Virus record (IMG/VR): IMGVR_UViG_3300048930_000306
Span: 1 to 20,052 of that record
DNA length: 20,052 nt
Strand: one strand, 5' to 3'
From: a virus
Positions 3,441-14,473 of the stretch are shown piece after piece; the first letter of the stretch is position 1, and each line of letters starts with the position of its first letter. The notes below the pieces were generated by a model that saw nothing but the letters and a program-made list of their open reading frames with translations, was not told where the DNA came from and did not search any database. Position numbers and translations under genes: made by a program.

Positions 3441-5099
3441 TCAATCACCGCTCTCCCGCATCGACTCCAAAATCGCCTTGGCTTCGTCGGTACTTTTCGC
3501 ACTCTCCAGTGCCGCACTCAAAGCCGCCACGCGGGTGTTCTGTGCCATCGTCGGCCCGCCGATCATCGCTGGCTCGCTAGCCGTCTTCGGTTCCCGTTCC
3601 CTCTCGTGCCGCTCTTCGTCGTAATCAAGGCCCAGCTCACCCGCCCAGGTCCGCTTACTCTTGACACCGTTACGATTGAGAATCTCATTCTCGCGGGCTT
3701 GCTTTTCTGAATCTTGGCTCGCCACATCGGGCAGCGTGACCTTGACCTGAATCAACGATTTGAGTTGCTTCATCGTCAGATTGCGGAAGCCGCTTTGACG
3801 CAAGCGAATCGCCAGGACTTTCCAGACAAGGCTTTCGACCATCATGCTGAAACTGCCTTGCTCAGCTTGGCGTGAACGCACAAACGATTCGTAAGCCATC
3901 GTGGCGGAATTGAGGTTGCTGTTGGAGGCATCGCCCGAAATCATAAATTCGGGAATGTTCTTATGGACGGCGATCATGCGGGCCACGAACTGCGCGACCT
4001 CCACGTAAACCGCACTCCGCAACTGACCCAGGGGTCCGACGGTCGCTTCCATGCCGCTGGGAATGTCTTTGACGGTCCCCGGCGAAGTGTGCTCGACGCT
4101 ACGATTGACGGCACCACTCTCGGTCGGGCGTTGATAGTTCGCCGAGGCATTGGCGGCCACCATGTTTTGAATCGAACTGCTAGTCGTGCCCGGTGCGTGC
4201 TGGCGAATCATCACGATGGCCGCCAGGATCGCCGCCCCCACCGCTGTATTCCGCTTGATTTTGTAAAGCATCTCCAGGTCATCAATGATCGGTTCATAGG
4301 AACCCCACCCGCGGCGAGCTTCCCGTCCGACGTTGATCTTGTAATGCTCCGCGCGTGAGGCGGGTAAGTAATCCCACTGCTCTCCCTCGTGATCGAATAC
4401 CGCGTGATAGCCAATCGGGCGCGTTACGTCATCACGGCGTAGCGTGTGGTTGTGATGAGTATGAACGCCCAGCCACCAGTGATTGAGCTTGTGGGCGCAA
4501 CCGAGGTGCCGCTCTAGTTCGCGTTTGTTCGCCGGTTCCAAGATGGCGTCGGGGTCGGTAAGTTCACACCGCACGTTCTCATCTTCGGGATAGAGAGTCG
4601 GTAGAACTTCCCCCTCAGTAAATGACTTGCGGTGCATCTCTTGATCGAGGCAGCCCACGAAATTGTTGTATTCAAGAAACGCATCAACTTCGGCTTGCGC
4701 AGCCTTAGCGAGTTCGCCAGCGTTCTTATTCTTGGGCGAGACTTCGACCGTACAGCCCTTGCCGATAACGTATTCGGTCAGTCGATCGCGCAGACCGATT
4801 GCGACGGGGAACATCGCTTCCATATTGCGGGCACGGGCGCGCATCCGGCGCAAGTCGTTGTTGTTTTCGTAAAGCGGACGATAGCGATCTTCGGTACGGT
4901 CGCGAATATCGGTGAAGAAATAGGGGGGCTTGTAATTGCCACCGCCGAAATCCTCGTAGGTGGGATATTGATTCCAGGGGACGCGCACCGGCAGCGGTGA
5001 TTCGAGCATGCGCAGCACGGCCTCGGCATGGGCCTCTTCGACCTTGGCTTGCATTTCTTCGAGGCGTTGCTTGGCGGGTTGTTGTTTGGCTTTGCTCAT
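3441..5099 (-). CDS. Portal protein (lambda-type)
   Basis: The 552-aa product has a usual portal length. Portal-like features are the NNDLRRMRARARNMEAMFPVA segment (79-99), the following VIGKGCTVEV strand, a central helical and wing region, and near residue 380 the stretch beginning HKNIPEFMISGD with SNLNSATMAYESF. This resembles lambda-family portals, where IPEYM-SGD-S-ANF-SA is typical. The protein forms the dodecameric ring at the special vertex through which DNA is packaged and ejected. The N-terminus is a charged coiled coil (about 5-35). ATG at 5099 overlaps the terminase stop as ATGA. The family is assigned from recalled motifs and the terL-portal-minor head order. Confidence 0.88.
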   Translation of the reverse strand: MSKAKQQPAKQRLEEMQAKVEEAHAEAVLRMLESPLPVRVPWNQYPTYEDFGGGNYKPPYFFTDIRDRTEDRYRPLYENNNDLRRMRARARNMEAMFPVAIGLRDRLTEYVIGKGCTVEVSPKNKNAGELAKAAQAEVDAFLEYNNFVGCLDQEMHRKSFTEGEVLPTLYPEDENVRCELTDPDAILEPANKRELERHLGCAHKLNHWWLGVHTHHNHTLRRDDVTRPIGYHAVFDHEGEQWDYLPASRAEHYKINVGREARRGWGSYEPIIDDLEMLYKIKRNTAVGAAILAAIVMIRQHAPGTTSSSIQNMVAANASANYQRPTESGAVNRSVEHTSPGTVKDIPSGMEATVGPLGQLRSAVYVEVAQFVARMIAVHKNIPEFMISGDASNSNLNSATMAYESFVRSRQAEQGSFSMMVESLVWKVLAIRLRQSGFRNLTMKQLKSLIQVKVTLPDVASQDSEKQARENEILNRNGVKSKRTWAGELGLDYDEERHEREREPKTASEPAMIGGPTMAQNTRVAALSAALESAKSTDEAKAILESMRESGD

Positions 5100-6514
5100 G
5101 TCGTCAATAACTCCTCTTCGGGTTGCTCGGCATAACCGCCCAGCATCTCTTCACAGAATCGAATCCCCATCTCCAGCGCATCCGGCCCGTCGTCGTGGAC
5201 CTGCGGAATTCCAAATTGCATCAACTGTTGCAGCAATAGTTCGCAGCCGGGCGTGCGTAAGAGCTTGATACGCCCCGCTCCCAGCAATGGACCCAGACAG
5301 CGAATCCGCACACGCTTATCGAGGTGGTTGTTGATACCGTAGGTGGTTCGCATGGAGATCCGCCGCGTCGACTGCATGGCTTGCTCGAATATCGGGCGCA
5401 GCATTTCTTGGAACTGATTAGTCTCGCAGCAGAAGAAATCGGGGTCGACCAATTCCATCCACTCCACGCCCTCGCTAACGATCCGGTCGATGGGCCTGCG
5501 GGCAATGTTCGCGTCGACGTAGTACGTCCCGTTGTGGCCTTTACAGACCGCCACAAACGCCGAGAAATCGGACTTGTTGCTCTTTCCCTTACTGGGATCG
5601 AGGGCGACAACCGTAATGAGCCGATCCACCGGCCATTCCGTGCACCAGATACTCTGAAAGTATTCCGGTGGCCACTCCGCCCCCTCGCTATCGACGATAT
5701 TCCAGTTGCCCCACAGAAGTCGTTGTTGTTCAACGTGCGGTAAGGCGAGAAGATTCGCCCGATAGCCGGGGTCTTTTGAAGTGAGGGCGGGGTTGTCGTC
5801 TAGTTTCGCGGCGATGAACGTCAGCGACTTGGGTTGGGATTCCGGGTAATCCTCTAACAACTCTTCACGGCTATTCGCCCAAATCAATTGTCCGCCGATA
5901 CGAATAAACCACCGCAACACCCCGGAACGCTCAGCAATCGGGTAGCCGGTCGAGGGTTCAATCCACCAGGAAATCAAACGAGCGACCCACGAACCCGCGT
6001 CGGGGTTGCAGGTGCAGCGCACATAGGGCGGGATGCCGCACGTTGAGCGGTTGCGGCTGAGCATGTACCAGAATTGACCTTCGGTGAAGCGTGTCAGCTC
6101 ATCGAAGCAAATCAGCGGACATTGTGCGCCCTGGTACTTGTGTTTGTCTTGTTCGTGCTCCAGGTGATCAAACTTCACCACGTTGTCGGCGTTTTGACCG
6201 TCACACGGGAATCGCCAGGCCAGATCGCCGATCCTCGCTTCTGCTCCCACCCGCGGATATATCTTTTCCGCCTCGGTCCACAGTCCGCCGACGTTCATCA
6301 CTTCCTTGGTGGTGCGGCGCAGAATGAGAGCGCTAAACCCTTTCACGCCCAGATTGCGAAGTGGTTCAAGCAGCAGCGCGTAGGACTTCCCGCCACCTGC
6401 CGCGCCGCCAAAGATGGCGATGTCGGCGCTGGTCGACAGGAATTGCTCCTGCGGTCCCGGTTGCGGTGCGATCCGCTCAATGTTGGCTGCTACCATTTCC
6501 GTTGGCGTGTCCAT
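5096..6514 (-). CDS. terL: Terminase large subunit
   Basis: The 472-aa protein has the two-domain layout of phage packaging motors. The ATPase half has a Walker A loop FGGAAGGGKS (35-44), Walker B LICFDE (134-139, Asp138 and Glu139) and a coupling-type motif CTCNPD (167-172). The RNase H-like nuclease half has Asp306 in VVALDPSKG, Glu364 in CCETNQF and Asp441-Asp445 in HDDGPDALEM, the expected metal-binding acidic residues. It pumps DNA into the prohead and cuts concatemers. The start at 6514 overlaps TerS by 38 bases; Met7 (6496) is possible. It couples to portal by ATGA. All key residues look intact. Confidence 0.95.
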   Translation of the reverse strand: MDTPTEMVAANIERIAPQPGPQEQFLSTSADIAIFGGAAGGGKSYALLLEPLRNLGVKGFSALILRRTTKEVMNVGGLWTEAEKIYPRVGAEARIGDLAWRFPCDGQNADNVVKFDHLEHEQDKHKYQGAQCPLICFDELTRFTEGQFWYMLSRNRSTCGIPPYVRCTCNPDAGSWVARLISWWIEPSTGYPIAERSGVLRWFIRIGGQLIWANSREELLEDYPESQPKSLTFIAAKLDDNPALTSKDPGYRANLLALPHVEQQRLLWGNWNIVDSEGAEWPPEYFQSIWCTEWPVDRLITVVALDPSKGKSNKSDFSAFVAVCKGHNGTYYVDANIARRPIDRIVSEGVEWMELVDPDFFCCETNQFQEMLRPIFEQAMQSTRRISMRTTYGINNHLDKRVRIRCLGPLLGAGRIKLLRTPGCELLLQQLMQFGIPQVHDDGPDALEMGIRFCEEMLGGYAEQPEEELLTT

Positions 6515-6902
6515 TCAGTTTGGGAATGATTTCGGGGTCGATGGTTGTGCGGTTGTTGTGTGGTAAGTAAACCTGAACGGCGACGGACTGACTGACCTCG
6601 TGTTTGTCGGCCACTTCTTTGTCGAGCATCTTATGCCGCTCGGCTTGGTCGAGCTTCGCAGCGGAAAGCAGCACATCCCACAAGCGTTTGACGGCGCGGG
6701 AGTCTTTGGCGTCAAGATTCAGGCCCAGCAGTTCGCCCGTCTTTTCGAGATACTCCTGAATCTTTTCTTGGCTCAAACATCCCAGCGAAAGCATCTTGGC
6801 GATATCCATGCAGTCGCGGCGCAAGTGACGTATCCCACCCGCCTGTTGCTGAGTGTGCGACAGCAGCTTGCTCGGATCGCTATGCCCGTTCGTTTCACTC
6901 AT
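6477..6902 (-). CDS. terS: Probable terminase small subunit
   Basis: This 141-aa mostly helical protein lies immediately upstream of terL and overlaps it, the classic position for the DNA-recognition subunit. The region RHLRRDCMDIAKMLSLGCLS (25-44) may be a helix-turn-helix-like part, followed by helices (45-95) fit for oligomerisation and a flexible Asn/Gly/His-rich C-terminus. The ATG at 6902 overlaps the upstream stop as ATGA. Sequence of small subunits is poorly conserved, so this call rests mainly on synteny, size and helicity. An unrelated regulator is the alternative. Confidence 0.7.
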   Translation of the reverse strand: MSETNGHSDPSKLLSHTQQQAGGIRHLRRDCMDIAKMLSLGCLSQEKIQEYLEKTGELLGLNLDAKDSRAVKRLWDVLLSAAKLDQAERHKMLDKEVADKHEVSQSVAVQVYLPHNNRTTIDPEIIPKLNGHANGNGSSQH

Positions 6903-7909
6903 TCCGGTTCCGCCTGCACTTCCACTTCGCCATAAACGGTCTTAGGTCCGCTCGCGTTCTGCGCGGTGACTTCGGTCTTAATCCAATGCGTCTCACCAGC
7001 TACAGCATCCGCCGCCACTTCAAACTCCACCTTGGGGACAGTCGCATCGTGGCCAATCGCAGGATCGGCTAACGTAATGTCGTCGGTTGCGGTCACAAGC
7101 TCGGGGTCGCCCTGTGCAGAGATAACTTTGCCTTGGGGGAGGATGGCGCGTACGTCGCAATTCCAGCCCGCCCGCCAGGTATCGCCGGGATGGACGATGA
7201 GCTTATTAGTGGAACGCCAAGTCCCGTCGCCGCTGCGGCGGAGGTTCCAAACGTGGTCCACGGGGTCTAGGTCGCGCGTGTCGCGTGTTCCCGCTCCCGC
7301 CGCTTCTGCCGCCGTCTCCGCCGCTTCCGCCGCCGCCTTAGCCGCAGCAATATCAGCGCTTAAGTTCGCACCCACAGGCTCACCAAGGAAAGACAACACC
7401 GTATCTCCACCAGTGAAGTTGCCGAGTTTCTCAGAGGCAGCATTCGCAGCTGTGGCAGCGAGATTGAGATTCGTGCTATTCGCGTCCATGTCCGCACGGG
7501 TGGCGGCTGCGATGGCTGCTGACGTCGGCGGTTGTGCCGTCAGCACTACGCCCACTCGCCAGGTCTTGTCCGTCGCGCCTGTCACACCTCCTACAGTGCC
7601 AACGACATGAGCGCGGTAGCTTTTGCCGACCTCGAAGCCATTGGCGGCCGAGAGCGTGATCGGCACTTCGTAAGAGCCATCGGAGTTGTCCTCGTCAACC
7701 AGAGTCATCGAGCCGCTCAGGCCCATGTACGTGCCGTCCTCGAAGATTCGGTACGTCGGAGCCGAGTCCGCATCAACGGCCGTCCCCGTGGCTGGGTCGT
7801 GCGTCGTCGCTGGGATACGAAGCACCGAGTCGATAGCTCGCGTTCCCAGGTCGCCAGCCACACAAGGCGCGACCAATACCAACCACACTAAGAACGAGAA
7901 GATTCTCAT
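6899..7909 (-). CDS. Sec-signal, fibre-like beta-rich protein with Ala-rich coiled coil (336 aa)
   Basis: The N-terminus is a clear Sec signal peptide: MR, then a hydrophobic run FSFLVWLVLVAP, with a likely cut after CVAG (about residue 19). Residues about 25-120 (RIPATTHDPATGTAVDADSA, then a YRIFEDG strand region) resemble a beta-sandwich module I recall from phage tail or fibre proteins that describe time- or value-like fields. Residues about 130-210 are Ala-rich with heptad character (AAAKAAAEAAETAAEAAGAG), likely a trimeric coiled coil. The C-terminal third is beta-rich. Fibre-like build plus a position next to packaging genes suggest a receptor-binding or surface protein, but an export signal is atypical for virion parts. 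It couples to TerS by ATGA. Confidence 0.65.
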   Translation of the reverse strand: MRIFSFLVWLVLVAPCVAGDLGTRAIDSVLRIPATTHDPATGTAVDADSAPTYRIFEDGTYMGLSGSMTLVDEDNSDGSYEVPITLSAANGFEVGKSYRAHVVGTVGGVTGATDKTWRVGVVLTAQPPTSAAIAAATRADMDANSTNLNLAATAANAASEKLGNFTGGDTVLSFLGEPVGANLSADIAAAKAAAEAAETAAEAAGAGTRDTRDLDPVDHVWNLRRSGDGTWRSTNKLIVHPGDTWRAGWNCDVRAILPQGKVISAQGDPELVTATDDITLADPAIGHDATVPKVEFEVAADAVAGETHWIKTEVTAQNASGPKTVYGEVEVQAEPE

Positions 7910-9924
7910 CGCACGACCCCCGCGAAAATCGAGTTGCGCCCGTCAATGGCTTCGTAGCTTTCGGGGCTTACATACATGTTGGTGTTGTAGTTGGAGAAGC
8001 TCGCGTACGTGCCTCCCCAGAATGTCACGAATGTTTTGCCGTTGACGTTCCAAGCGTACGGCCGGGCGTTGACTTGGTAGGTCAAAAACTCTGAAAGCCA
8101 ATCGGTGATCGTCCAGGTGCTGTCGATCTTCTCGACCGCATGCACGCGGAAATCACTCGCCCCGAATTCACGCGAGACATAGACCTTATCGATGTCGTTC
8201 GGGTCTTGAGTGACTCCGCCGCTGTAGTGCTGCTGGACGGCATAGAGATAGTCCGCGGTGCCGGTCGTGCCAGCATCACAAATCTTTTCCGTGGTCCAGA
8301 CCCCTTCGACCAAGCGGGCTTGATGATACTCAGCCGCCGTGGTGGCGTGGCTTGGAAAGACGGCGAACACTGCGGTCAAAGTCCCCTTCACCCGCTTGTA
8401 ATCCCAGATCCAACACTCGCTCGTCGTGCCGTCGTAAACCAAAGTCAGGTCGCTTAACGAGAGTGGCAAATCACTCGCATCACCGATCAGCGTGCCGTCG
8501 GACTTGTAGATGGTGAGCGCGCCCGTAAGAGGGTCGATCAGCACATAGCCCGCGTACAGGCTGTTGATGGCCTCGTCAGGCTGTCCGGTGGTGCAAATAA
8601 AATCGAACCGCGTACCGCTGGTTCTCCACCAGCGAAAGTACGGCCGGGTGTTACCCGTCGAAACAAACTCCGTAAAGGTACTCCACGTGGCCCCGTCGTC
8701 GGTGCTGGTAAAGAATCCTTGCGGGTAGTGCGTGCCCGCTCCCACGTTGTAACGGCAGAAGTGATAGATCGTGTCCTGGTAATCGGCCTGCATCACCTGT
8801 GCGTAGGCAATTTGCAGATTGTCCTCGATCTTAACGGCCGCTTCCCAAGCCGACGCATCTTCTTTGTTGGTTGAGCGTGCCGCCCAGCAGTCACCGTTGT
8901 GGTGTGAAAAGACGGCCAACAGGTAGCCACTCTTGAGGCGGATGATCGATGGGTCATCGTGATCGTCAGTCTCGCCGACGGCCTGATTGATCGTGCCAAC
9001 GACTATCTCGCCCGTGTCCAAGTCGAGTTCGGCGATCTTGGGCATCTCGCCCGTGCGTGGAAAGCCGCCGAACCAGAGCTTCCGCAGCGAGCTCGCCATC
9101 ACGGGCGAATTGAACCAGGTGCGAACGCCGTCGACCATTCCCAGCATCCAAGGATTGGTGAACGTGAGGCTTTGCAGATCGGCATAGGTTCGTGAGTTTC
9201 CGCTGTTGTTGAGCCCTTTGATTTCCGCCGGACTCAATACTCGCCGCCAGATACCCACATCCTTGACCGCGATATCGGAGAAGAGAGACGGCGTGGGATT
9301 AGCGAGCGCCCCCAAAAACAGAGACGCAGTGCCGTCCATCGGCGAGGTCGACTGTGTTGTGCGATTTGGTGCCCCGTCGTCGACTTGGATCGCCAACACC
9401 GAATCGAGGTGATCGTACCAGACGGTGATGTTGTACCAGACGCCGATGGTCGGGGCGCCGAAGTTATCGGCGACGAGCGTGGTTCCCGAGCCACCGCTGG
9501 GACTGCCGATACTCACGGAGAAGCGGTCAGTCGTGTTGCTCCAGAAGATGGCGTATTCACGTTGAGCTGTGGCCGTGGTCCGCCACTTGTTGAGGATATA
9601 CATCTGCGAAGCGGGCTTGCTCAGCAGCATCAACTTGATTCGCAGCGTGAAGCTTGTGTTATATAAGCTCAGGTCGGCATTATCGGCGATGGAGGCGTAA
9701 GCCTGATCGGCGATTAAGATCGATCGCCCGCCCTGATAACTGGCGAGTGTGTCGCCCGAAGAGAGTGCGAGGCTATTGCCGCGACCGGTCGCATCGGCCA
9801 CGACGGCGCTCGCATCCGTTTCGTTGCAGGGCCAATAGGCCACCAGACCATCGGTGAGCGACGGTGCAGCAAAGCACGGCGAGCCGCCCAACAACAGCCC
9901 CAAAATCAATAACAGCCGTTTCAT
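7906..9924 (-). CDS. Secreted LamG + BNR_4-like beta-propeller protein
   Basis: I chose Met at 9924 (672 aa), giving ATGA overlap with the upstream gene and a signal peptide MKRLLLILGLLLGG with likely cleavage after CFAA (about 20). Residues about 22-250 look like a LamG/concanavalin-type lectin domain (GLVAYWPCNE at the start, DVGIWRRVLSPAEI near the end). Residues about 265-660 look like a BNR_4-family propeller: DDHDDPSI (320-327), a perfect Asp-box STDDGATW (407-414), NTRPYFRWW (425-433). This fold is shared by sialidase-like proteins and PL24/PL25-type polysaccharide lyases. A role in binding or degrading a surface polysaccharide is inferred; catalytic residues cannot be fixed from sequence alone. 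Confidence 0.72.
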   Translation of the reverse strand: MKRLLLILGLLLGGSPCFAAPSLTDGLVAYWPCNETDASAVVADATGRGNSLALSSGDTLASYQGGRSILIADQAYASIADNADLSLYNTSFTLRIKLMLLSKPASQMYILNKWRTTATAQREYAIFWSNTTDRFSVSIGSPSGGSGTTLVADNFGAPTIGVWYNITVWYDHLDSVLAIQVDDGAPNRTTQSTSPMDGTASLFLGALANPTPSLFSDIAVKDVGIWRRVLSPAEIKGLNNSGNSRTYADLQSLTFTNPWMLGMVDGVRTWFNSPVMASSLRKLWFGGFPRTGEMPKIAELDLDTGEIVVGTINQAVGETDDHDDPSIIRLKSGYLLAVFSHHNGDCWAARSTNKEDASAWEAAVKIEDNLQIAYAQVMQADYQDTIYHFCRYNVGAGTHYPQGFFTSTDDGATWSTFTEFVSTGNTRPYFRWWRTSGTRFDFICTTGQPDEAINSLYAGYVLIDPLTGALTIYKSDGTLIGDASDLPLSLSDLTLVYDGTTSECWIWDYKRVKGTLTAVFAVFPSHATTAAEYHQARLVEGVWTTEKICDAGTTGTADYLYAVQQHYSGGVTQDPNDIDKVYVSREFGASDFRVHAVEKIDSTWTITDWLSEFLTYQVNARPYAWNVNGKTFVTFWGGTYASFSNYNTNMYVSPESYEAIDGRNSIFAGVVR

Positions 9925-10754
9925 TCGACCCCCTCGATCGGCACTTTCAGCAGATTGATGCACGGCACAAAGGCACGTCCGCGAGCCGCGGCGACTTCCG
10001 CCGTGATGTTTTTCCCCGGTAAAAGTTCCAGCACCAAAGGATGCAAAGCGACATCACGCAACGGATCGGCGGCATTCTTGCCCGTGGCCCAGCCATTGCG
10101 GCCTTGCCTGTTGAGCCAAAATTCTGTTTGCAGCACGACCGGCAAATTCCAAAACGGCCTACAGTCGTCACGAGCGAACGTGTGAGGCTCAATGGCCGAA
10201 CCAATGCCGTAGTTCGCCAGGTTTTTCATCAGCATCCGAACGTGATGCGTCGGTTCCGTCTCGGCGTCGAACACAACCATATCGGGGCGAGCCTTATAGA
10301 CCGGCCACCATTCCGCCTGCACGCGATTGACCCAAGCACGATCCGTCTCGCCCGGCTTTTTGGGGAACCACTTGGAGCCGCCCAGATACCACGCTTCCCA
10401 CTTGGTGCGTTTCTTTGAGGCTTCGATGAGTGCGTCCCAATCAGCACGAGCCTGATAGTTCGCGTTGCGTGGTTCGGCTTTCGCTCGCCGCGACATGATG
10501 GAGAACTGGTCAAGCTCCATCGGGAAGCCGTCATGTCCCGCTGGGTTGTGGAGCATGATGAAATCGAACTGCTCGGCCTCTTCGTAGACCTTGCCCCACG
10601 GCTTAGCGGCGGTCACGTACCAGGGACCGTAGTCTCCACCGCCATCGTTATAAACGGCCACGAAACGACCCGGCGTAGGGGGCTCGGCAGCCGGTAGACT
10701 TCCGCATAGGCAGAGTACAAAAAGGGCGGTGAGAATGTATTTTGATGGTTTCAT
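9921..10754 (-). CDS. Secreted protein of unknown function, possible TIM-barrel (277 aa)
   Basis: It has a strong signal peptide (KYILTALFVLCLCGSLPAAE, cleavage probably after PAA near residue 23). The mature part is Trp-rich with alternating strand-like and helical stretches: FDFIMLHNP (63-71), KWEAWYLGG, DMVVFDAETEPTHH with several acidic and His residues, GIGSAIEPHTF, and a C-terminal AFVPCINLLK. This rhythm recalls TIM-barrel hydrolases that act on glycans, with E/D residues at strand ends, but I cannot name a family. Overlap with both neighbours is ATGA (10751-10754 and 9921-9924), placing it in one translational chain with the lectin/propeller protein. A carbohydrate-active role is only an inference. 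Confidence 0.65.
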   Translation of the reverse strand: MKPSKYILTALFVLCLCGSLPAAEPPTPGRFVAVYNDGGGDYGPWYVTAAKPWGKVYEEAEQFDFIMLHNPAGHDGFPMELDQFSIMSRRAKAEPRNANYQARADWDALIEASKKRTKWEAWYLGGSKWFPKKPGETDRAWVNRVQAEWWPVYKARPDMVVFDAETEPTHHVRMLMKNLANYGIGSAIEPHTFARDDCRPFWNLPVVLQTEFWLNRQGRNGWATGKNAADPLRDVALHPLVLELLPGKNITAEVAAARGRAFVPCINLLKVPIEGVE

Positions 10755-11131
10755 GCTCCACTCCCTTGCGGTGCTGGTGGTCGAGCTGTGGTTGCATTAG
10801 GTAGATTCTGCCCGCCTTTGCAGACGCGGCCCTCAGTAATTGGCACCGCAATTCGTGGCGTCTGGTTGCGAATATGTGTTCTGTCGCAACTAAGGGGGGC
10901 TTCGATGTGTGGCTGTAATGTGAATCCAACGAAACGAGATTTGGTCTCATGCGGTTTGACTTCACATGACTCCACCCAGACATCGTTCCGAGTGTTACCA
11001 TCCCACCAAATCACGCGATATGTGATGTGGCCGTTGCCTGTTAGCGAGACGCCAATGACGGTCGCTTCCTTGCCGTCGCCGCCAAGATCAACAACCGAAC
11101 CGGGCTCGAAAACTTTGAATTGTTTTTCCAT
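10751..11131 (-). CDS. Small phage protein with SH3-like strand region (126 aa)
   Basis: I chose the ATG at 11131, which overlaps the upstream stop as TGATG; an in-frame start 15 bases upstream is possible. The N-terminal 65 residues (FEPGSVVDLGGDGKEATVIG, then YRVIWWDGNTRNDVWVESCEV) resemble a small beta-barrel module seen in many phage proteins, in which a YxVxWWDG segment is followed by a Trp-containing strand. The C-terminal half is irregular, Pro/Ala/Gln-rich and probably disordered. No signal peptide. Function unknown. It couples to the secreted 277-aa protein by ATGA. Confidence 0.68.
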   Translation of the reverse strand: MEKQFKVFEPGSVVDLGGDGKEATVIGVSLTGNGHITYRVIWWDGNTRNDVWVESCEVKPHETKSRFVGFTLQPHIEAPLSCDRTHIRNQTPRIAVPITEGRVCKGGQNLPNATTARPPAPQGSGA

Positions 11132-11235
11132 CACAGCCACCCCCAATCCTTAAAAATCTCCGCCCACTTCACGACCGCAAAGCAGCCGCACTTGAGGTAA
11201 ATGTGGTTCCGGTGGGTTAGGAGGAAGTTAAGCAT
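11131..11235 (-). CDS. Very small hydrophobic/aromatic protein (34 aa), candidate
   Basis: The frame from ATG 11235 to the stop at 11131 fits exactly between two genes, with TGATG overlaps on both sides, which supports translation by re-initiation. The product is hydrophobic and aromatic, with CGC in the middle and the ending KDWGWL. It could be a peripheral membrane peptide near the lysis genes, or simply a linking frame. No recognised family. Confidence 0.5.
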   Translation of the reverse strand: MLNFLLTHRNHIYLKCGCFAVVKWAEIFKDWGWL

Positions 11236-11552
11236 CAATAGCCCCGCGCCTCGCGTAGCTTTTGCTCGTAACCGTCCGCAACCGCATGGCGATCCTGCCA
11301 GACTTTCCAGGCCGCATAGATGATTTTGGCTAACGTCGCGATGGCAAATATCCACAACTCCATCGAGCTAAACTTCTTGCCGTCATCAAGCGAGTGGTTG
11401 CGCAGTTGCTTGTTCACGTAACGCCGCATTCTTTTTTCTTGCGAACCGCGCAAACGTGTCCCCTTGATCATGCCGCACTGGTCCTCGATTTCGAGAAACT
11501 GCATGGCGTAACCGTGGGCTACTTCGCGCAGGAGTTGTTCGCGGTCGGTCAC
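11235..11552 (-). CDS. Small membrane protein with one TM helix (105 aa)
   Basis: Residues 1-60 are charged and helical (MTDREQLLREVAHGY at the start, then a basic stretch RLRGSQEKRMRRYVNKQLRN). A single hydrophobic helix follows (ELWIFAIATLAKIIYAAW, about 65-82), then a charged tail of about 22 residues. The ATG at 11552 overlaps the upstream gene as ATGA. It sits in a run of three small membrane proteins downstream of a holin-like gene, so a lysis-regulating or membrane-adapter role is plausible. There is no family match that I recognise. Confidence 0.68.
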   Translation of the reverse strand: MTDREQLLREVAHGYAMQFLEIEDQCGMIKGTRLRGSQEKRMRRYVNKQLRNHSLDDGKKFSSMELWIFAIATLAKIIYAAWKVWQDRHAVADGYEQKLREARGY

Positions 11553-11746
11553 TGCTTGTCCTCAATTCCCAAATACGCCTTGATAGTGGCGACTTCTTCG
11601 TTAAGCGTGGTTAGCTTTTCCTTAGTCTGCTTGCTTGTCTTGGGCTTCTGGTTTTCCCTCACCATCCCTACCAGCAGCGCCACACAAGCGACCATCGCCA
11701 GCAACACGACAATCGCTCCGTAACGGTGAAGATAAGTCGGCTTCAC
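11549..11746 (-). CDS. TM + coiled-coil miniprotein (65 aa), spanin- or antiholin-like
   Basis: I chose the GTG at 11746: it overlaps the holin-like stop as GTGA and has a strong GGAGG site 7 bases upstream, inside the holin-like gene. A longer upstream frame would run through that gene and is unlikely. The product has one TM helix near the N-terminus (YGAIVVLLAMVACVALLVGM, about 9-28) followed by a Lys/Thr/Glu-rich segment with coiled-coil character (KLTTLNEEVATIKAYLG). This is the layout of inner-membrane spanins (Rz-like) but shorter than most, so an antiholin or other lysis partner is equally possible. It couples to the next gene by ATGA. Confidence 0.68.
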   Translation of the reverse strand: MKPTYLHRYGAIVVLLAMVACVALLVGMVRENQKPKTSKQTKEKLTTLNEEVATIKAYLGIEDKQ

Positions 11747-12087
11747 TTCTCTTCCTCCAGCCAGCTTGGCTTGTACTTTTTGACGTACTGCGCGAACGAT
11801 GCCGACGCACCAAAGCCAGCCGGTACGGCCAACAATATCGCCTTGAGCGGCTCGGCTCCCGTGGTTACGTAGCTCGCGAAACCAAGGAACGCACTGCACC
11901 CGAGGTCGCCCAGCACGAATTTCCAGGTCGGTTTGCGACTGTCGAATGTCAGGCACTGGTAAATTCCTCCGCCCGCTATTCCAAAGCAGGCCATGATGAA
12001 GGCGATTTGGTGTTCGGGATTGGCTAAAAAAACCACCGTTGTGAGCGCACCGATGATGCGAAGTTTGATGTATCCAAGCATCGTCAT
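11743..12087 (-). CDS. Holin-like membrane protein (114 aa)
   Basis: The protein has three or four hydrophobic segments (about 8-22, 27-46, 58-74 and 80-100) and a short charged C-terminus (KKYKPSWLEEEK), the size and shape of many phage holins. It begins the chain of small membrane proteins and follows a 221-base gap, so it may head a lysis cassette. Upstream bases give no strong ribosome site; Met3 (12081) is an alternative start. Holins share little sequence, so the assignment rests on topology, charge pattern and context. Another small phage membrane protein is possible. Confidence 0.6.
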   Translation of the reverse strand: MTMLGYIKLRIIGALTTVVFLANPEHQIAFIMACFGIAGGGIYQCLTFDSRKPTWKFVLGDLGCSAFLGFASYVTTGAEPLKAILLAVPAGFGASASFAQYVKKYKPSWLEEEK

Positions 12088-12151
12088 CGTCGGGCCATCC
12101 GTGGTGTCGTCTCGTGAATTAAAAGGCGGCTGATATAGGGGTGATTTTTGG

Positions 12152-12262
12152 CTACTGTGGAGTGTCGCTCATCAACTTCCCGTTTCTCCACTGCCTCCGC
12201 ATGGCATTAAGGTAATCAGGTCGACGTATCCGCTCCCTTTTCCCACCACTTAAATCATCCAC
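12152..12262 (-). CDS. Candidate small basic protein in the intergenic gap (36 aa, GTG start)
   Basis: This frame runs from GTG at 12262 to TAG at 12152. The product is strongly basic and protein-like (KRERIRRPDYLNAMRRQWRN in its middle). The gap 12088-12308 otherwise holds no obvious gene. No clear ribosome site precedes the GTG, and an upstream TGA closes the frame soon before it, so the start is uncertain. It could be a small DNA- or RNA-binding protein, a remnant of a longer gene, or chance. Confidence 0.35.
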   Translation of the reverse strand: MDDLSGGKRERIRRPDYLNAMRRQWRNGKLMSDTPQ

Positions 12263-12308
12263 ACGGCACGAGTCCGCTTTTCGTCAGCCGCCCTGGGGGT
12301 GGAGTGAC

Positions 12309-12668
12309 TTAGTGACAACGCCAACACGCGAACAAACCACGGCCAGCGGCGCGTCGCGCTTGCCTGCGCTCAATGCCGATGATCGCCTTGCCGACTTTCA
12401 GCGCGCCCTTGCCGACGCGCTTCACGCCGATACCAACAGCCTTCGCGGCTTTCAAAGGAACGCGCACGGGAGCGGTCAAGACGGGGTGGTTCGCGCCGAA
12501 GGTTGTCGCGTAGGTGCGGCTGCTGACAATCGAGTGTTGCGGGGCGGACTTGGCGGACTCGACAGACGCGGCGGAGCATTGGTCGCCAACACAAGCCGGG
12601 GGCTGGGCAATCGCACTTGCGCCCATGATCAGCAACACAACAATGGCTAGTAAATACTCAAGTTTCAT
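12309..12668 (-). CDS. Secreted cationic amphipathic protein (119 aa)
   Basis: I chose Met at 12668, which has AAAGGA 6 bases upstream. Residues 1-22 form a Sec signal peptide (MKLEYLLAIVVLLIMGASAI, then AQ-P). The mature N-terminus contains a Cys pair (ACVGDQC). Residues about 75-112 are Gly/Lys/Arg-rich with periodic hydrophobics (KAAKAVGIGVKRVGKGALKV, then GKAIIGI and RRQARRAAGR), compatible with a cationic amphipathic helix. It ends CWRCH. Such peptides can act on membranes; phage disruptins are one known class. Alternatively it is a structural or host-derived secreted protein. It overlaps the upstream zinc-ribbon gene by 11 bases and is followed by a 221-base gap. Confidence 0.65.
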   Translation of the reverse strand: MKLEYLLAIVVLLIMGASAIAQPPACVGDQCSAASVESAKSAPQHSIVSSRTYATTFGANHPVLTAPVRVPLKAAKAVGIGVKRVGKGALKVGKAIIGIERRQARRAAGRGLFACWRCH

Positions 12669-12831
12669 TTTCAATCCTTTCAATGATTTCTGTGTCATGT
12701 GAACCACAAGACGGGCACTCTAATAAACTTTCGTCCATCTCGAATGGGTAAACATTTGCCCATTCATAGGTGCAGATACAGCACCACACCTTACTGGCCA
12801 GCCATCCTTTTGTTTCAGTTTCGCTCAGCAT
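12658..12831 (-). CDS. Zinc-ribbon miniprotein (57 aa)
   Basis: I chose the ATG at 12831. The pattern is WCCICTYEW (about 15-23), a spacer of some 16 residues, then CPSCG, giving two CxxC knuckles of a zinc ribbon, followed by an acidic tail (DTEIIERIENET). It overlaps the preceding gene by 17 bases and the following secreted protein by 11. Function unknown; the knuckles suggest zinc binding and possibly protein or nucleic-acid contacts. Confidence 0.65.
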   Translation of the reverse strand: MLSETETKGWLASKVWCCICTYEWANVYPFEMDESLLECPSCGSHDTEIIERIENET

Positions 12832-13018
12832 CTTTCCGTACCTGCCGCCGCAAAATATCAAAGGTGAAATCAACTATTTCCAATAAGTCTGGGACGGGGG
12901 CCTTTACGCCAACATCTAATATCACGCTTCGCAGCCATGTCACTGACTCTTCATCGCCGCATCGGGCTTTGTGTAAAACGCCTTCTGCGTATGCAAGCTG
13001 CTCAGCATTGAAACTCAA
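12815..13018 (-). CDS. Small helical protein (67 aa, TTG start)
   Basis: I chose TTG at 13018, two bases after the upstream stop, because GGAG sits 7 bases before it; the ATG at 13051 would overlap the glutaredoxin-like gene by 32 bases. The product is acidic/hydrophobic and helical (FNAEQLAYAEGVLHKARCGD, then DLLEIVDFTFDILRRQVRK). No signal peptide or known motif. It lies between the glutaredoxin-like protein and a zinc ribbon. Function unknown. Confidence 0.6.
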   Translation of the reverse strand: MSFNAEQLAYAEGVLHKARCGDEESVTWLRSVILDVGVKAPVPDLLEIVDFTFDILRRQVRKDAERN

Positions 13019-13019
13019 T

Positions 13020-13718
13020 TCACTTCTCCAAAAGGGTTTGCAATCGTGCATAATCGGCAGGCTCGCCGTTAATCAGTCCATGCGGATAAGCCTGACCTGG
13101 GTGTTTCTTGATCTCGTTGTTGCCGTGAATCACGTAAGAATGTTTCACGCCTGCCTTGGTTAGCTCTTTAGTGAGCCACTTGCAGGCGGGGCAATTCGCC
13201 GTGGCGTAGACCACGACGTTGAGTGGTTCGGTGGTAGCAGCGGGCGGAGCGATCTCTTTAATTGCCGTATCGGCCACCGGCTCATCACCGGGAGATGCGT
13301 CTGCGCTGTCGCTCGCCGCTGCTTTGGGTTTGCAATGCTTCTTGACCGACTCGATTGCGGTCCACATGGTTACTGCGTCGTAAAGCGACCAATCCTTGTT
13401 GCGCTGCCAGAATTCATCAATCTCGGCTTTGTAGGTCGCATAGAGGCCTTGGATTTCTGCGTCAGGTATTGGCGGCAGTCCATCAACGTATTCCTCACTT
13501 GCGCAGGGAGCTTGCGCGGAGACTTCCGGCTCTTGCGCGGGAAGTTCACTGGTCACAATCACATAAGCCGCCGCGTAGGCGTAGGGAATCTTGAGATCCC
13601 GCTCGCCCGTGGAGCAAGAAACGGTTCCGCATCCATCCATCACAAAAAACGTAACGACTAGCAGAATGAAAGCCAGCGACCAAACGCAACAACAGCCGCA
13701 AAGATTCTTTGGGGTCAT
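13020..13718 (-). CDS. Membrane-anchored glutaredoxin/thioredoxin-like protein (232 aa)
   Basis: The N-terminus has a Cys cluster (CGCCC, 7-11), then a TM helix (about 12-27) followed by DGCGTVSC; the lipobox is not canonical, so an uncleaved anchor is more likely than a lipoprotein. Residues 40-160 form an acidic, Ala/Pro-rich linker with a helix-rich centre (about 85-130). The C-terminal domain (165-232) is glutaredoxin-like: VVVYATANCPACKW with the CPAC active site (176-179) and a candidate cis-proline at Pro212 in YPHGLINGEP. If exported, it would act as a thiol-disulfide enzyme outside the cytoplasmic membrane. It overlaps the papain-like protease gene as ATGA. Confidence 0.78.
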   Translation of the reverse strand: MTPKNLCGCCCVWSLAFILLVVTFFVMDGCGTVSCSTGERDLKIPYAYAAAYVIVTSELPAQEPEVSAQAPCASEEYVDGLPPIPDAEIQGLYATYKAEIDEFWQRNKDWSLYDAVTMWTAIESVKKHCKPKAAASDSADASPGDEPVADTAIKEIAPPAATTEPLNVVVYATANCPACKWLTKELTKAGVKHSYVIHGNNEIKKHPGQAYPHGLINGEPADYARLQTLLEK

Positions 13719-14473
13719 ACGCCAAGCCCCCCTTCGCTCCAGTCCATTTCGCGGACCTGGGGTTCTGAGAGGTCAGACAAGCCAAAGGCTACCGTGCCGT
13801 CGATTCCGAGATAGCGTTCAACCTTTTCTTCGCTCCATTCCGTCCAGCCATCGCCGTCCCAATCTTCGCCCCACGAGTTGGCCACCGGCAATTTGCCATC
13901 AACCAATGATCCAATGCTTGTGACGCAATGCCACGCACGGCGATTGAATTCCCATGGCACGCCCCAAATGATGCCACCCATGCCCGACTTCTGGAAATCA
14001 AACACCTTGTCCACGGTGTCGAGGCGGTAGCTGTTGAGAATGAGGCGCTGCTTAGCATCCTCGTAGAAGTCAGGCGACCATTCCGTGCGGAAGCGGTTTT
14101 TGTAGGGGTAGAGTGATTCGAGCGGCAGGCCGATTGTCTTGGCGACTTTGACAGCACCGAAGATCGAAGCGCCAGCGGATTCCGAAGGGCGACTGCCGCC
14201 CGCCTTTTGGGATTCGACCCAGGCAAACATACGGTTGAGCTGTACAACGGTTTTGCCGCGACTAGCCAAGTAGATGCAATACTCGGCGTCGGTCGTTAGG
14301 CCGTGGCCCACGCAGCTAGGCCGGGGATTCTGGTTCTCGACCTGCATCCAGGTTCTGGGATGGGGAAGCTCGATTCCCGGCCCGCTTCCGCAGACTGGCG
14401 AATACTCCATCGACTCCGCTTTCAGGCGGTCAAGTTGCTCTAAGGCTGGATCGTAACCACGGAAATCGCTCAT
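13715..14473 (-). CDS. Papain-like (C1A-type) cysteine protease with EF-hand-like loop
   Basis: I chose Met at 14473 (252 aa), which overlaps the upstream stop as ATGA. All papain-family elements are visible: oxyanion Gln48 exactly six residues before nucleophile Cys54 in QNPRPSCVGHG, His182 in RRAWHCV, and Asn199 in VANSWGEDWDGDGWTEWSE. No signal peptide or long pro-region is present, only about 45 residues before the active site. Residues 204-215 (DWDGDGWTEWSE) match the 12-position EF-hand loop and directly follow the catalytic Asn. It probably cleaves protein substrates, in lysis, head maturation or host takeover. Its membrane-protein neighbours point to the envelope. It is coupled to the glutaredoxin-like gene. 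Confidence 0.88.
   Translation of the reverse strand: MSDFRGYDPALEQLDRLKAESMEYSPVCGSGPGIELPHPRTWMQVENQNPRPSCVGHGLTTDAEYCIYLASRGKTVVQLNRMFAWVESQKAGGSRPSESAGASIFGAVKVAKTIGLPLESLYPYKNRFRTEWSPDFYEDAKQRLILNSYRLDTVDKVFDFQKSGMGGIIWGVPWEFNRRAWHCVTSIGSLVDGKLPVANSWGEDWDGDGWTEWSEEKVERYLGIDGTVAFGLSDLSEPQVREMDWSEGGLGV

Follow-up and report, generated by a model that had tools for sequence, protein, structure and literature searches.

A papain-type protease and an anchored glutaredoxin-like protein as a possible envelope-attack module of Planctomycetota phages

Gene content and organization

The stretch of DNA analysed here (the window) is the entire 20,052-bp IMG/VR record IMGVR_UViG_3300048930_000306, a linear fragment. 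It carries a gene for a papain-type cysteine protease (P0001) next to one for a membrane-anchored protein with a glutaredoxin-like domain (P0002), together with putative lysis genes and a head module (Table 1). The gene pair had been pointed out in a sequence-only reading of this DNA, and that observation held up overall. The ATGA overlap between P0001 and P0002 is real and measures 4 nt, but it argues only weakly for functional coupling because overlaps of 4 nt occur at 10 of the 21 junctions in the operon-like stretch around the two genes, and it was dropped as an argument for a link between them. The region of the window that contains P0001 is rich in genes for signal-peptide proteins.

Table 1. 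Genes of the window referred to in the text
Gene	Coordinates	Strand	Features
P0009	1168..2238	-	Head maturation protease of a planctomycete head-module family; fills the capsid-protease role; host evidence
P0012	3441..5099	-	Portal protein
P0011	5096..6514	-	Terminase large subunit; downstream landmark
P0008	11549..11746	-	65 aa; one TM and a charged helix; putative spanin or holin-accessory candidate
P0003	11743..12087	-	114 aa; hydrophobic; putative holin candidate
P0002	13020..13718	-	One strong TM near the N-terminus (residues 9-27); a long linker leads to a glutaredoxin/thioredoxin-like domain at the C-terminus, which bears CPAC; overlaps P0001 by ATGA
P0001	13715..14473	-	Papain-type (C1A) cysteine protease of 252 aa, read from the ATG at 14473 to the stop at 13715; no signal peptide, TM or other hydrophobic segment; catalytic Gln48, Cys54, His182, Asn199
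P0007	14470..14964	-	164 aa; signal/TM segment at N-terminus; function unknown; ATGA overlap with P0001
P0010	14964..15302	-	Small protein; phrog_9685 match (E 2e-5); function unknown; start uncertain

The head protease P0009 matches phrog_15531 (E 1.3e-14) and is grouped with the portal and capsid genes. Members of Planctomycetota account for 79 of the 80 best genome matches to its family, which supports the planctomycete host proposed earlier. A scan based on the portal protein re-found two contigs and nothing further.

The protease and its partner

P0001 is a C1A papain-type protease, belonging to a family of protein endopeptidases whose activity it is predicted to share. As the sequence-only reading had stated, the protein is complete and lacks a signal peptide. 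Its active site is intact, and in an alignment of 19 phage homologues Gln48, Cys54 and His182 are invariant while Asn199 is more than 90% conserved. A profile of the family aligns with the solved C1 protease 3ois (xylellain) with an E-value of 1.5e-29 over about 200 residues, and it matches cathepsins as well. The Gln/Cys/His/Asn active site is common to P0001 and 3ois, a C1A enzyme of the bacterial branch. Unlike 3ois, however, P0001 is phage-encoded, has no leader peptide and has a shorter stretch from the central strand to the catalytic His. On its own P0001 scores 12.3 bits against PF00112, under the Pfam gathering score of 20.7; we attribute the shortfall to divergence, given that the cut-off is reached by closer relatives, including the C1 protein of L178, a close relative of P0001. 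Identity to other phage members of the family is just 18-26%, and scans for close relatives in viral contigs and genome contigs returned none. The nearest relatives are encoded in two planctomycete genomes, G359 and G321, with 30% identity (E 8e-24; tree support 97/89).

The earlier description of P0002 as a membrane-anchored, glutaredoxin-like protein with a CPAC motif stands as to the anchor and the motif, while its glutaredoxin fold scores weakly. The C-terminal CPAC domain is matched by PF00462 (E 0.019), phrog_22 (E 0.009) and TIGR02196 (E 0.002), all under the curated cut-offs where such cut-offs exist. We call the protein glutaredoxin-like rather than a glutaredoxin because its PF00462 score of 15.6 bits falls below the cut-off of 22.9. 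The CxxC motif sits past strand 1 and ahead of helix 1 (VVVYATANCPACKWL), and the AlphaFold model of the domain has a pLDDT of 49. A close-relative scan of viral contigs found none for P0002, and phmmer found no match to its glutaredoxin-like domain in phage loci bearing a C1 gene. Homology to the thioredoxins of the Blastopirellula type described below is marginal, at 6.5 bits compared with a best score of 4.4 in 300 shuffles.

Recurrence of the pair in planctomycetes

Conservation of the protease-redox pair in related phages was borne out: a protease and an exported or membrane-anchored thioredoxin-fold protein are encoded together upstream of terminase in six or more additional phage-type loci of planctomycetes, which represent two further lineages. 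In G359 and G321 each C1 gene is followed by a gene for an exported CVPC thioredoxin and then by an ATPase gene. The thioredoxin copy that was tested matches PF00085 (E 1.6e-5), and terminase lies downstream in G321, the copy tested. In prophages of Blastopirellula marina DSM 3645 and three other planctomycete genomes, a C1 protease with an N-terminal TM is followed by an exported CPYC or CPHC thioredoxin and then by terminase; the thioredoxins that were tested match PF13899 at E 1e-7 to 6e-7. The window shares with the planctomycete loci (L131, L171-L173, L177/L178 and B. marina) the order C1 followed by an exported CxxC thioredoxin, with terminase downstream where tested, and a host in Planctomycetota. 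It differs in that P0001 lacks the TM of the Blastopirellula-type protease and in that P0002 has a short glutaredoxin-like domain whereas the redox proteins of the prophages are clear thioredoxins. C1 genes were called in 13 planctomycete regions; an adjacent CxxC thioredoxin was present in all five that contain phage genes and in none of the other eight (Fisher 0.0008), the five phage-type regions amounting to about three lineages.

Phage relatives outside this group show a different picture. In Thermoanaerobacterium phage THSA-485A the C1 peptidase adjoins a GH25 enzyme in the lysis cassette, and in Alicyclobacillus phage MMB025 the annotated 'endolysin' consists of a C1 domain fused to a glycosidase and PG_binding_1. 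Both place the protease family of P0001 in or beside lysis genes, but they differ from the window in having an adjacent or fused peptidoglycan hydrolase, no thioredoxin partner annotated nearby and Firmicute hosts. In locus L016 the C1 gene is near M15, TM-protein and GH24 genes. Away from any lysis cassette, it lies among tRNAs in Streptomyces phage Shady and beside tail-like genes in other phages. No glutaredoxin homologue was found near C1 in most other phages. Because many C1 phage relatives lack a thioredoxin neighbour, the redox pairing is a planctomycete trait and not a trait of the C1 family.

In 21 of 30 other related planctomycete elements, a Trypsin_2-type protease is encoded upstream of terminase in place of C1, and 13 of the 30 have a YiiX-like gene. 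Related elements encode a YiiX/NlpC-P60-like hydrolase beside their protease. That an exported trypsin-like protease and such a hydrolase fill the region upstream of terminase in many of these elements suggests that a non-homologous enzyme has taken over the role of the protease.

Lysis-gene candidates

As in the holin-endolysin-spanin cassettes of tailed phages, small membrane proteins are encoded downstream of the pair and upstream of terminase. The window differs from these cassettes in having no recognisable peptidoglycan hydrolase and in its weak holin and spanin assignments. P0003, earlier called holin-like, is indeed small and hydrophobic and is treated here as a putative holin, the sole holin match being to a PHROG with an E-value of 0.27. 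P0008 has a weak Rz-like match (E 0.04). A further secreted protein, P0005, resembled a possible TIM-barrel hydrolase, a likeness that its AlphaFold model (pLDDT 33) leaves unsupported, and no claim is made for it as a lysin.

In agreement with the sequence-only reading, no lysozyme, amidase or peptidoglycan peptidase was recognised among the 35 proteins of the window with Pfam and PHROG (Pfam only for the last 15). This is weak evidence because the record is a 20,052-bp linear fragment. Nor were known peptidoglycan hydrolases present among the proteins sampled from the prophage locus of Blastopirellula and from related elements. Searches of 29 records with PF00959 and PF01510 gave two GH24 records and Amidase_2 in none; these two models miss many lysins, such as the GH25 enzyme beside C1 in THSA-485A, and were not used as evidence of absence. 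Several probable lysins of C1-bearing phages have no Pfam match, and divergent lysins can thus escape Pfam.

Possible roles of the protease and redox proteins

We favor, with a probability of roughly one half, the view that phages of Planctomycetota use the pair as a conserved module for attack on the envelope, one which would combine proteolysis of the envelope with a thiol-redox partner. The module probably acts at lysis, we infer, alongside a peptidoglycan hydrolase. Soluble P0001 would accumulate in the cytoplasm during the late phase of infection. Since it has no export signal a holin would be needed, and P0001 would reach the periplasm once the candidate holin P0003 opened the inner membrane. 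There it may digest the protein layer of the envelope, and the planctomycete envelope protein has been described as cysteine-rich and disulfide-stabilised (PMC3035269), in line with the cystine-rich envelope invoked earlier. The glutaredoxin-like domain of anchored P0002, facing the periplasm, could reduce disulfides in the substrate, keep the protease cysteine reduced, or both. Cutting of the peptidoglycan itself is probably still left to a peptidoglycan hydrolase that is encoded outside the fragment or belongs to a type not recognised here. Points against the envelope-attack model are the lack of an export signal in P0001, the infirm assignment of P0003 as a holin, the low-scoring glutaredoxin fold of P0002 and its marginal likeness to the prophage thioredoxins, the many C1 phage relatives that have no thioredoxin neighbour, and the location of C1 outside a lysis cassette in some phages.

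The sequence-only reading had gone further and placed the pair in place of an endolysin, with proteolysis and disulfide reduction opening the cell and the phage making no peptidoglycan hydrolase. The nature of the envelope and the lack of known hydrolases in the window and in the sampled proteins are consistent with this proposal, which is nevertheless not supported and is unlikely: the record is fragmentary, planctomycete sacculi contain lysozyme-sensitive peptidoglycan (PMC4432640), C1 homologues elsewhere adjoin or are fused to peptidoglycan hydrolases, related elements encode YiiX/NlpC-P60-like enzymes, and some probable lysins go unseen by Pfam. Its general form, that planctomycete phages open their hosts with secreted or holin-released C1 or trypsin proteases and an anchored thiol reductase that unlocks a disulfide-stabilised envelope, dispensing with a classical endolysin, is equally doubtful. 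Alternatively, P0001 could itself be the endolysin and cut peptidoglycan peptides, with the glutaredoxin-like protein keeping Cys54 reduced in the periplasm. Papain-fold enzymes (CHAP, NlpC/P60 and amidases) are common endolysins (PMC10318531), and C1 is encoded in lysis cassettes and also forms a fused domain within a protein annotated as an endolysin. The match of its family to classical C1A protein endopeptidases and the separate peptidoglycan-active domains already present in THSA-485A and MMB025 make this quite improbable.

A role away from lysis has also been weighed. P0001 might be packaged or injected to open the envelope at entry, or act inside the cell in host takeover, with the glutaredoxin as a virion or metabolic accessory; the tail-like or tRNA neighbours of C1 in some phages and the many signal-peptide proteins around the pair would fit such a role. 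The planctomycete pairs, however, are upstream of terminase and distant from tail genes, and the Blastopirellula C1 and thioredoxin have TM or signal segments, in keeping with export by an infected host, so that this too appears quite unlikely. Mere coincidence of a general phage protease with an unrelated redox gene would agree with the frequency of 4-nt overlaps and with the missing glutaredoxin homologue in most other phages, yet it is very unlikely given that C1-thioredoxin neighbours recur in planctomycete phage-type loci, the nearest relatives of P0001 included. Least probable, and already largely refuted, is a role in prohead or capsid processing, the usual function of phage proteases close to structural genes as a matter of general knowledge. 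Action on capsid proteins had been named earlier as a finding that would speak against a lysis role, but head maturation falls to the dedicated P0009 beside the portal and capsid genes, P0001 is about 12 kb from it, and C1 is missing from most related head modules; a prohead-protease role for P0001 was rejected since P0009 already fills it.

Phage lysis of planctomycetes appears to be unstudied, a search of a limited set of papers for planctomycete-phage phrases having given nothing relevant. The conserved protease-thioredoxin pair, which is present in the cultured B. marina DSM 3645 among others, offers a concrete genetic handle on phage exit, and also one on the long-disputed question of how much protein and disulfides really contribute to the envelope of planctomycetes.

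The protease and its redox partner

The window is the complete IMG/VR record, a linear fragment of 20,052 bp. Its principal genes are encoded on the minus strand, in the order RuvC-like resolvase, P0010, P0007, P0001 (the C1 protease), P0002 (the Grx-like protein), small genes, P0003/P0008 (candidates for a holin and a spanin or holin accessory), several signal-peptide proteins, terminase, portal, Mu-F-like protein and head maturation protease. The portal and head protease had no match in the phage collection.

P0001 alone is poorly recognized by PF00112 (12.3 bits). A phage C1 protease family, built by iteration from a distant match in huge phage LR756511, comprises 26 loci from one viral scan as well as cultured phages. 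An alignment of 19 members has Gln48, Cys54 and His182 without exception and Asn199 at more than 90% conservation. A five-member profile retrieves numerous cathepsins as well as 3ois, a bacterial C1 protease of known structure (E 1.5e-29). These results confirm the papain-like protease of the sequence-only reading, and by sequence the C1A active site of P0001 is intact. Hydropathy revealed no hydrophobic segment in the protein.

The sequence-only reading had described P0002 as a membrane-anchored glutaredoxin-like protein that is ATGA-coupled to the protease. The sequence has a strong N-terminal TM segment and a C-terminal domain with CPAC, and so shows a TM-anchored CxxC domain. This domain is probably Grx-like, as it is matched by PF00462 (E 0.019), phrog_22 (E 0.009) and TIGR02196 (E 0.002), all under curated cut-offs where such exist; its AlphaFold model is of low confidence (pLDDT 49). 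The ATGA overlap is real but not distinctive, since 4-nt overlaps occur at 10 of the 21 junctions.

Features with coordinates in the window and in compared loci
Record	Feature	Position	Remarks
Window	Terminase	5096-6514	~43% identity to terminases of Rhizobium phages and Methanoculleus viruses
Window	At least four proteins (P0016, P0006, P0005, P0004) starting with signal-peptide-like segments	6899-12707	Atypical of tailed-phage regions; LamG and BNR_4 domains in P0006
Window	P0005, signal-peptide protein	9921-10754	TIM-barrel hydrolase likeness by eye; no family match; AlphaFold pLDDT 33
Blastopirellula marina DSM 3645 (L131)	C1 protease with N-terminal TM	3604-4773	
L131	TM peptide		Between C1 and thioredoxin
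L131	Exported CPYC thioredoxin	5159-5728	PF13899 E 5.5e-7
L131	Terminase	6665-7963	Portal and head protease also present, same family as in the window
Alicyclobacillus phage MMB025 (L039, PV686781.1)	'Endolysin'	5881-8142	Natural fusion: C1 papain protease, Ig-like, Rv2525c-like glycosidase (PF08924 E 1e-28), PG_binding_1
L004 (head-module relative G001)	Secreted Trypsin_2 protease with coiled-coil and TM	11971-13602	Far upstream of terminase

Conservation of the pair in planctomycete elements

A profile of the head-protease family matched genome contigs 135 times, and 79 of the best 80 matches are Planctomycetota by title, the sole exception being a 'Nealsonbacteria' MAG. The evidence for a planctomycete host, which the sequence-only reading had left uncertain, is strong but indirect, because the window head protease is just about 31-47% identical to these matches over best segments.

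A search of 392 planctomycete genomes for C1 proteases led to the retrieval of 15 regions; genes in retrieved loci were called with a simple script and TM segments by hydropathy. Three further prophages (L171, L172, L173) share the order C1, thioredoxin, terminase with L131. In two other genomes (L177, L178), C1 is followed by an exported thioredoxin with CVPC (PF00085 E 1.6e-5 in L178) and also by an ATPase, and in one of them (G321) a terminase follows (PF03354 E 1.4e-10, phrog_9 E 2.8e-28). P0001 is closest to this C1 pair (30% identity over 230 residues, E 8e-24) and groups with it in the tree (support 97/89). By motif scan, an adjacent CxxC thioredoxin occurs in 5/5 C1 regions with phage genes versus 0/8 without, where the Fisher value of 0.0008 is illustrative because the five regions represent about three lineages. 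By sequence, the association of C1 with thioredoxin and terminase is conserved in planctomycete elements. In phage C1 neighbourhoods in general, by contrast, no homologue of the window Grx domain was detectable.

L059 and huge phages (contigs L009, L010 and L011) show a related variant, in which a signal-peptide protein encoded upstream overlaps the start of C1; its C-terminal domain looks thioredoxin-like by eye, without Pfam support or CxxC. Two distinct C1 genes occur in the LR756511, G012 and G013 records. Membrane-anchored CPPC proteins are also present in head-module relatives L043, L047 and L050.

Proposed role in lysis

We give roughly even odds (0.5) to an envelope-proteolysis module with a redox partner in a planctomycete phage. 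P0001 and P0002 would be expressed late, P0001 would be released in a holin-dependent manner, and the Grx-like domain would face the periplasm. Proteolysis would target a disulfide-rich envelope protein, with P0002 reducing either this substrate or the protease; the PG hydrolase would be encoded elsewhere. Open-access literature searched for planctomycete-phage phrases yielded nothing relevant.

That proteolysis and disulfide reduction act in place of an endolysin, as originally suggested, is not supported and seems unlikely. An older description of SDS-resistant envelope protein, cysteine-rich and disulfide-stabilised (Liesack et al., cited in PMC3035269), agrees with the suggestion. So does the fact that no known PG hydrolase turned up in the window or in the neighbouring genes sampled from planctomycete elements; but this absence is weak, given a fragmentary record and several probable lysins of relatives that Pfam misses. 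Against replacement, a GH25 lysozyme directly precedes C1 in cultured phage THSA-485A, a glycosidase is fused to C1 in MMB025, and an M15 peptidase, a TM protein and a GH24 lysozyme lie upstream of C1 in L016/L017; moreover, planctomycete peptidoglycan is lysozyme-sensitive (PMC4432640). We consider it unlikely that the C1 enzyme is itself the endolysin, and a role in entry or takeover is equally improbable.

Proteases upstream of the terminase

Thirty related loci extend far enough upstream for comparison, although a few of them duplicate a single contig. A Trypsin_2-type protease is encoded ahead of the terminase in 21 of these, and Pfam confirms the family in L056, L105 and L004. A YiiX/NlpC-P60-like hydrolase, assigned from its His and Cys motifs by eye while Pfam gave no match, adjoins it in 13 of the 30. 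In L073, L105, L126 and about 18 other loci, the exported Trypsin_2 protease and often the YiiX/NlpC-P60-like hydrolase are accompanied by ParB-like and ATPase genes. As a rule, then, these elements place a protease gene ahead of the terminase, and two unrelated families supply it. The breadth of Trypsin_2-bearing planctomycete clusters suggests a domesticated or gene-transfer-agent-like cluster, and the related planctomycete elements may be prophages or clusters of this kind.
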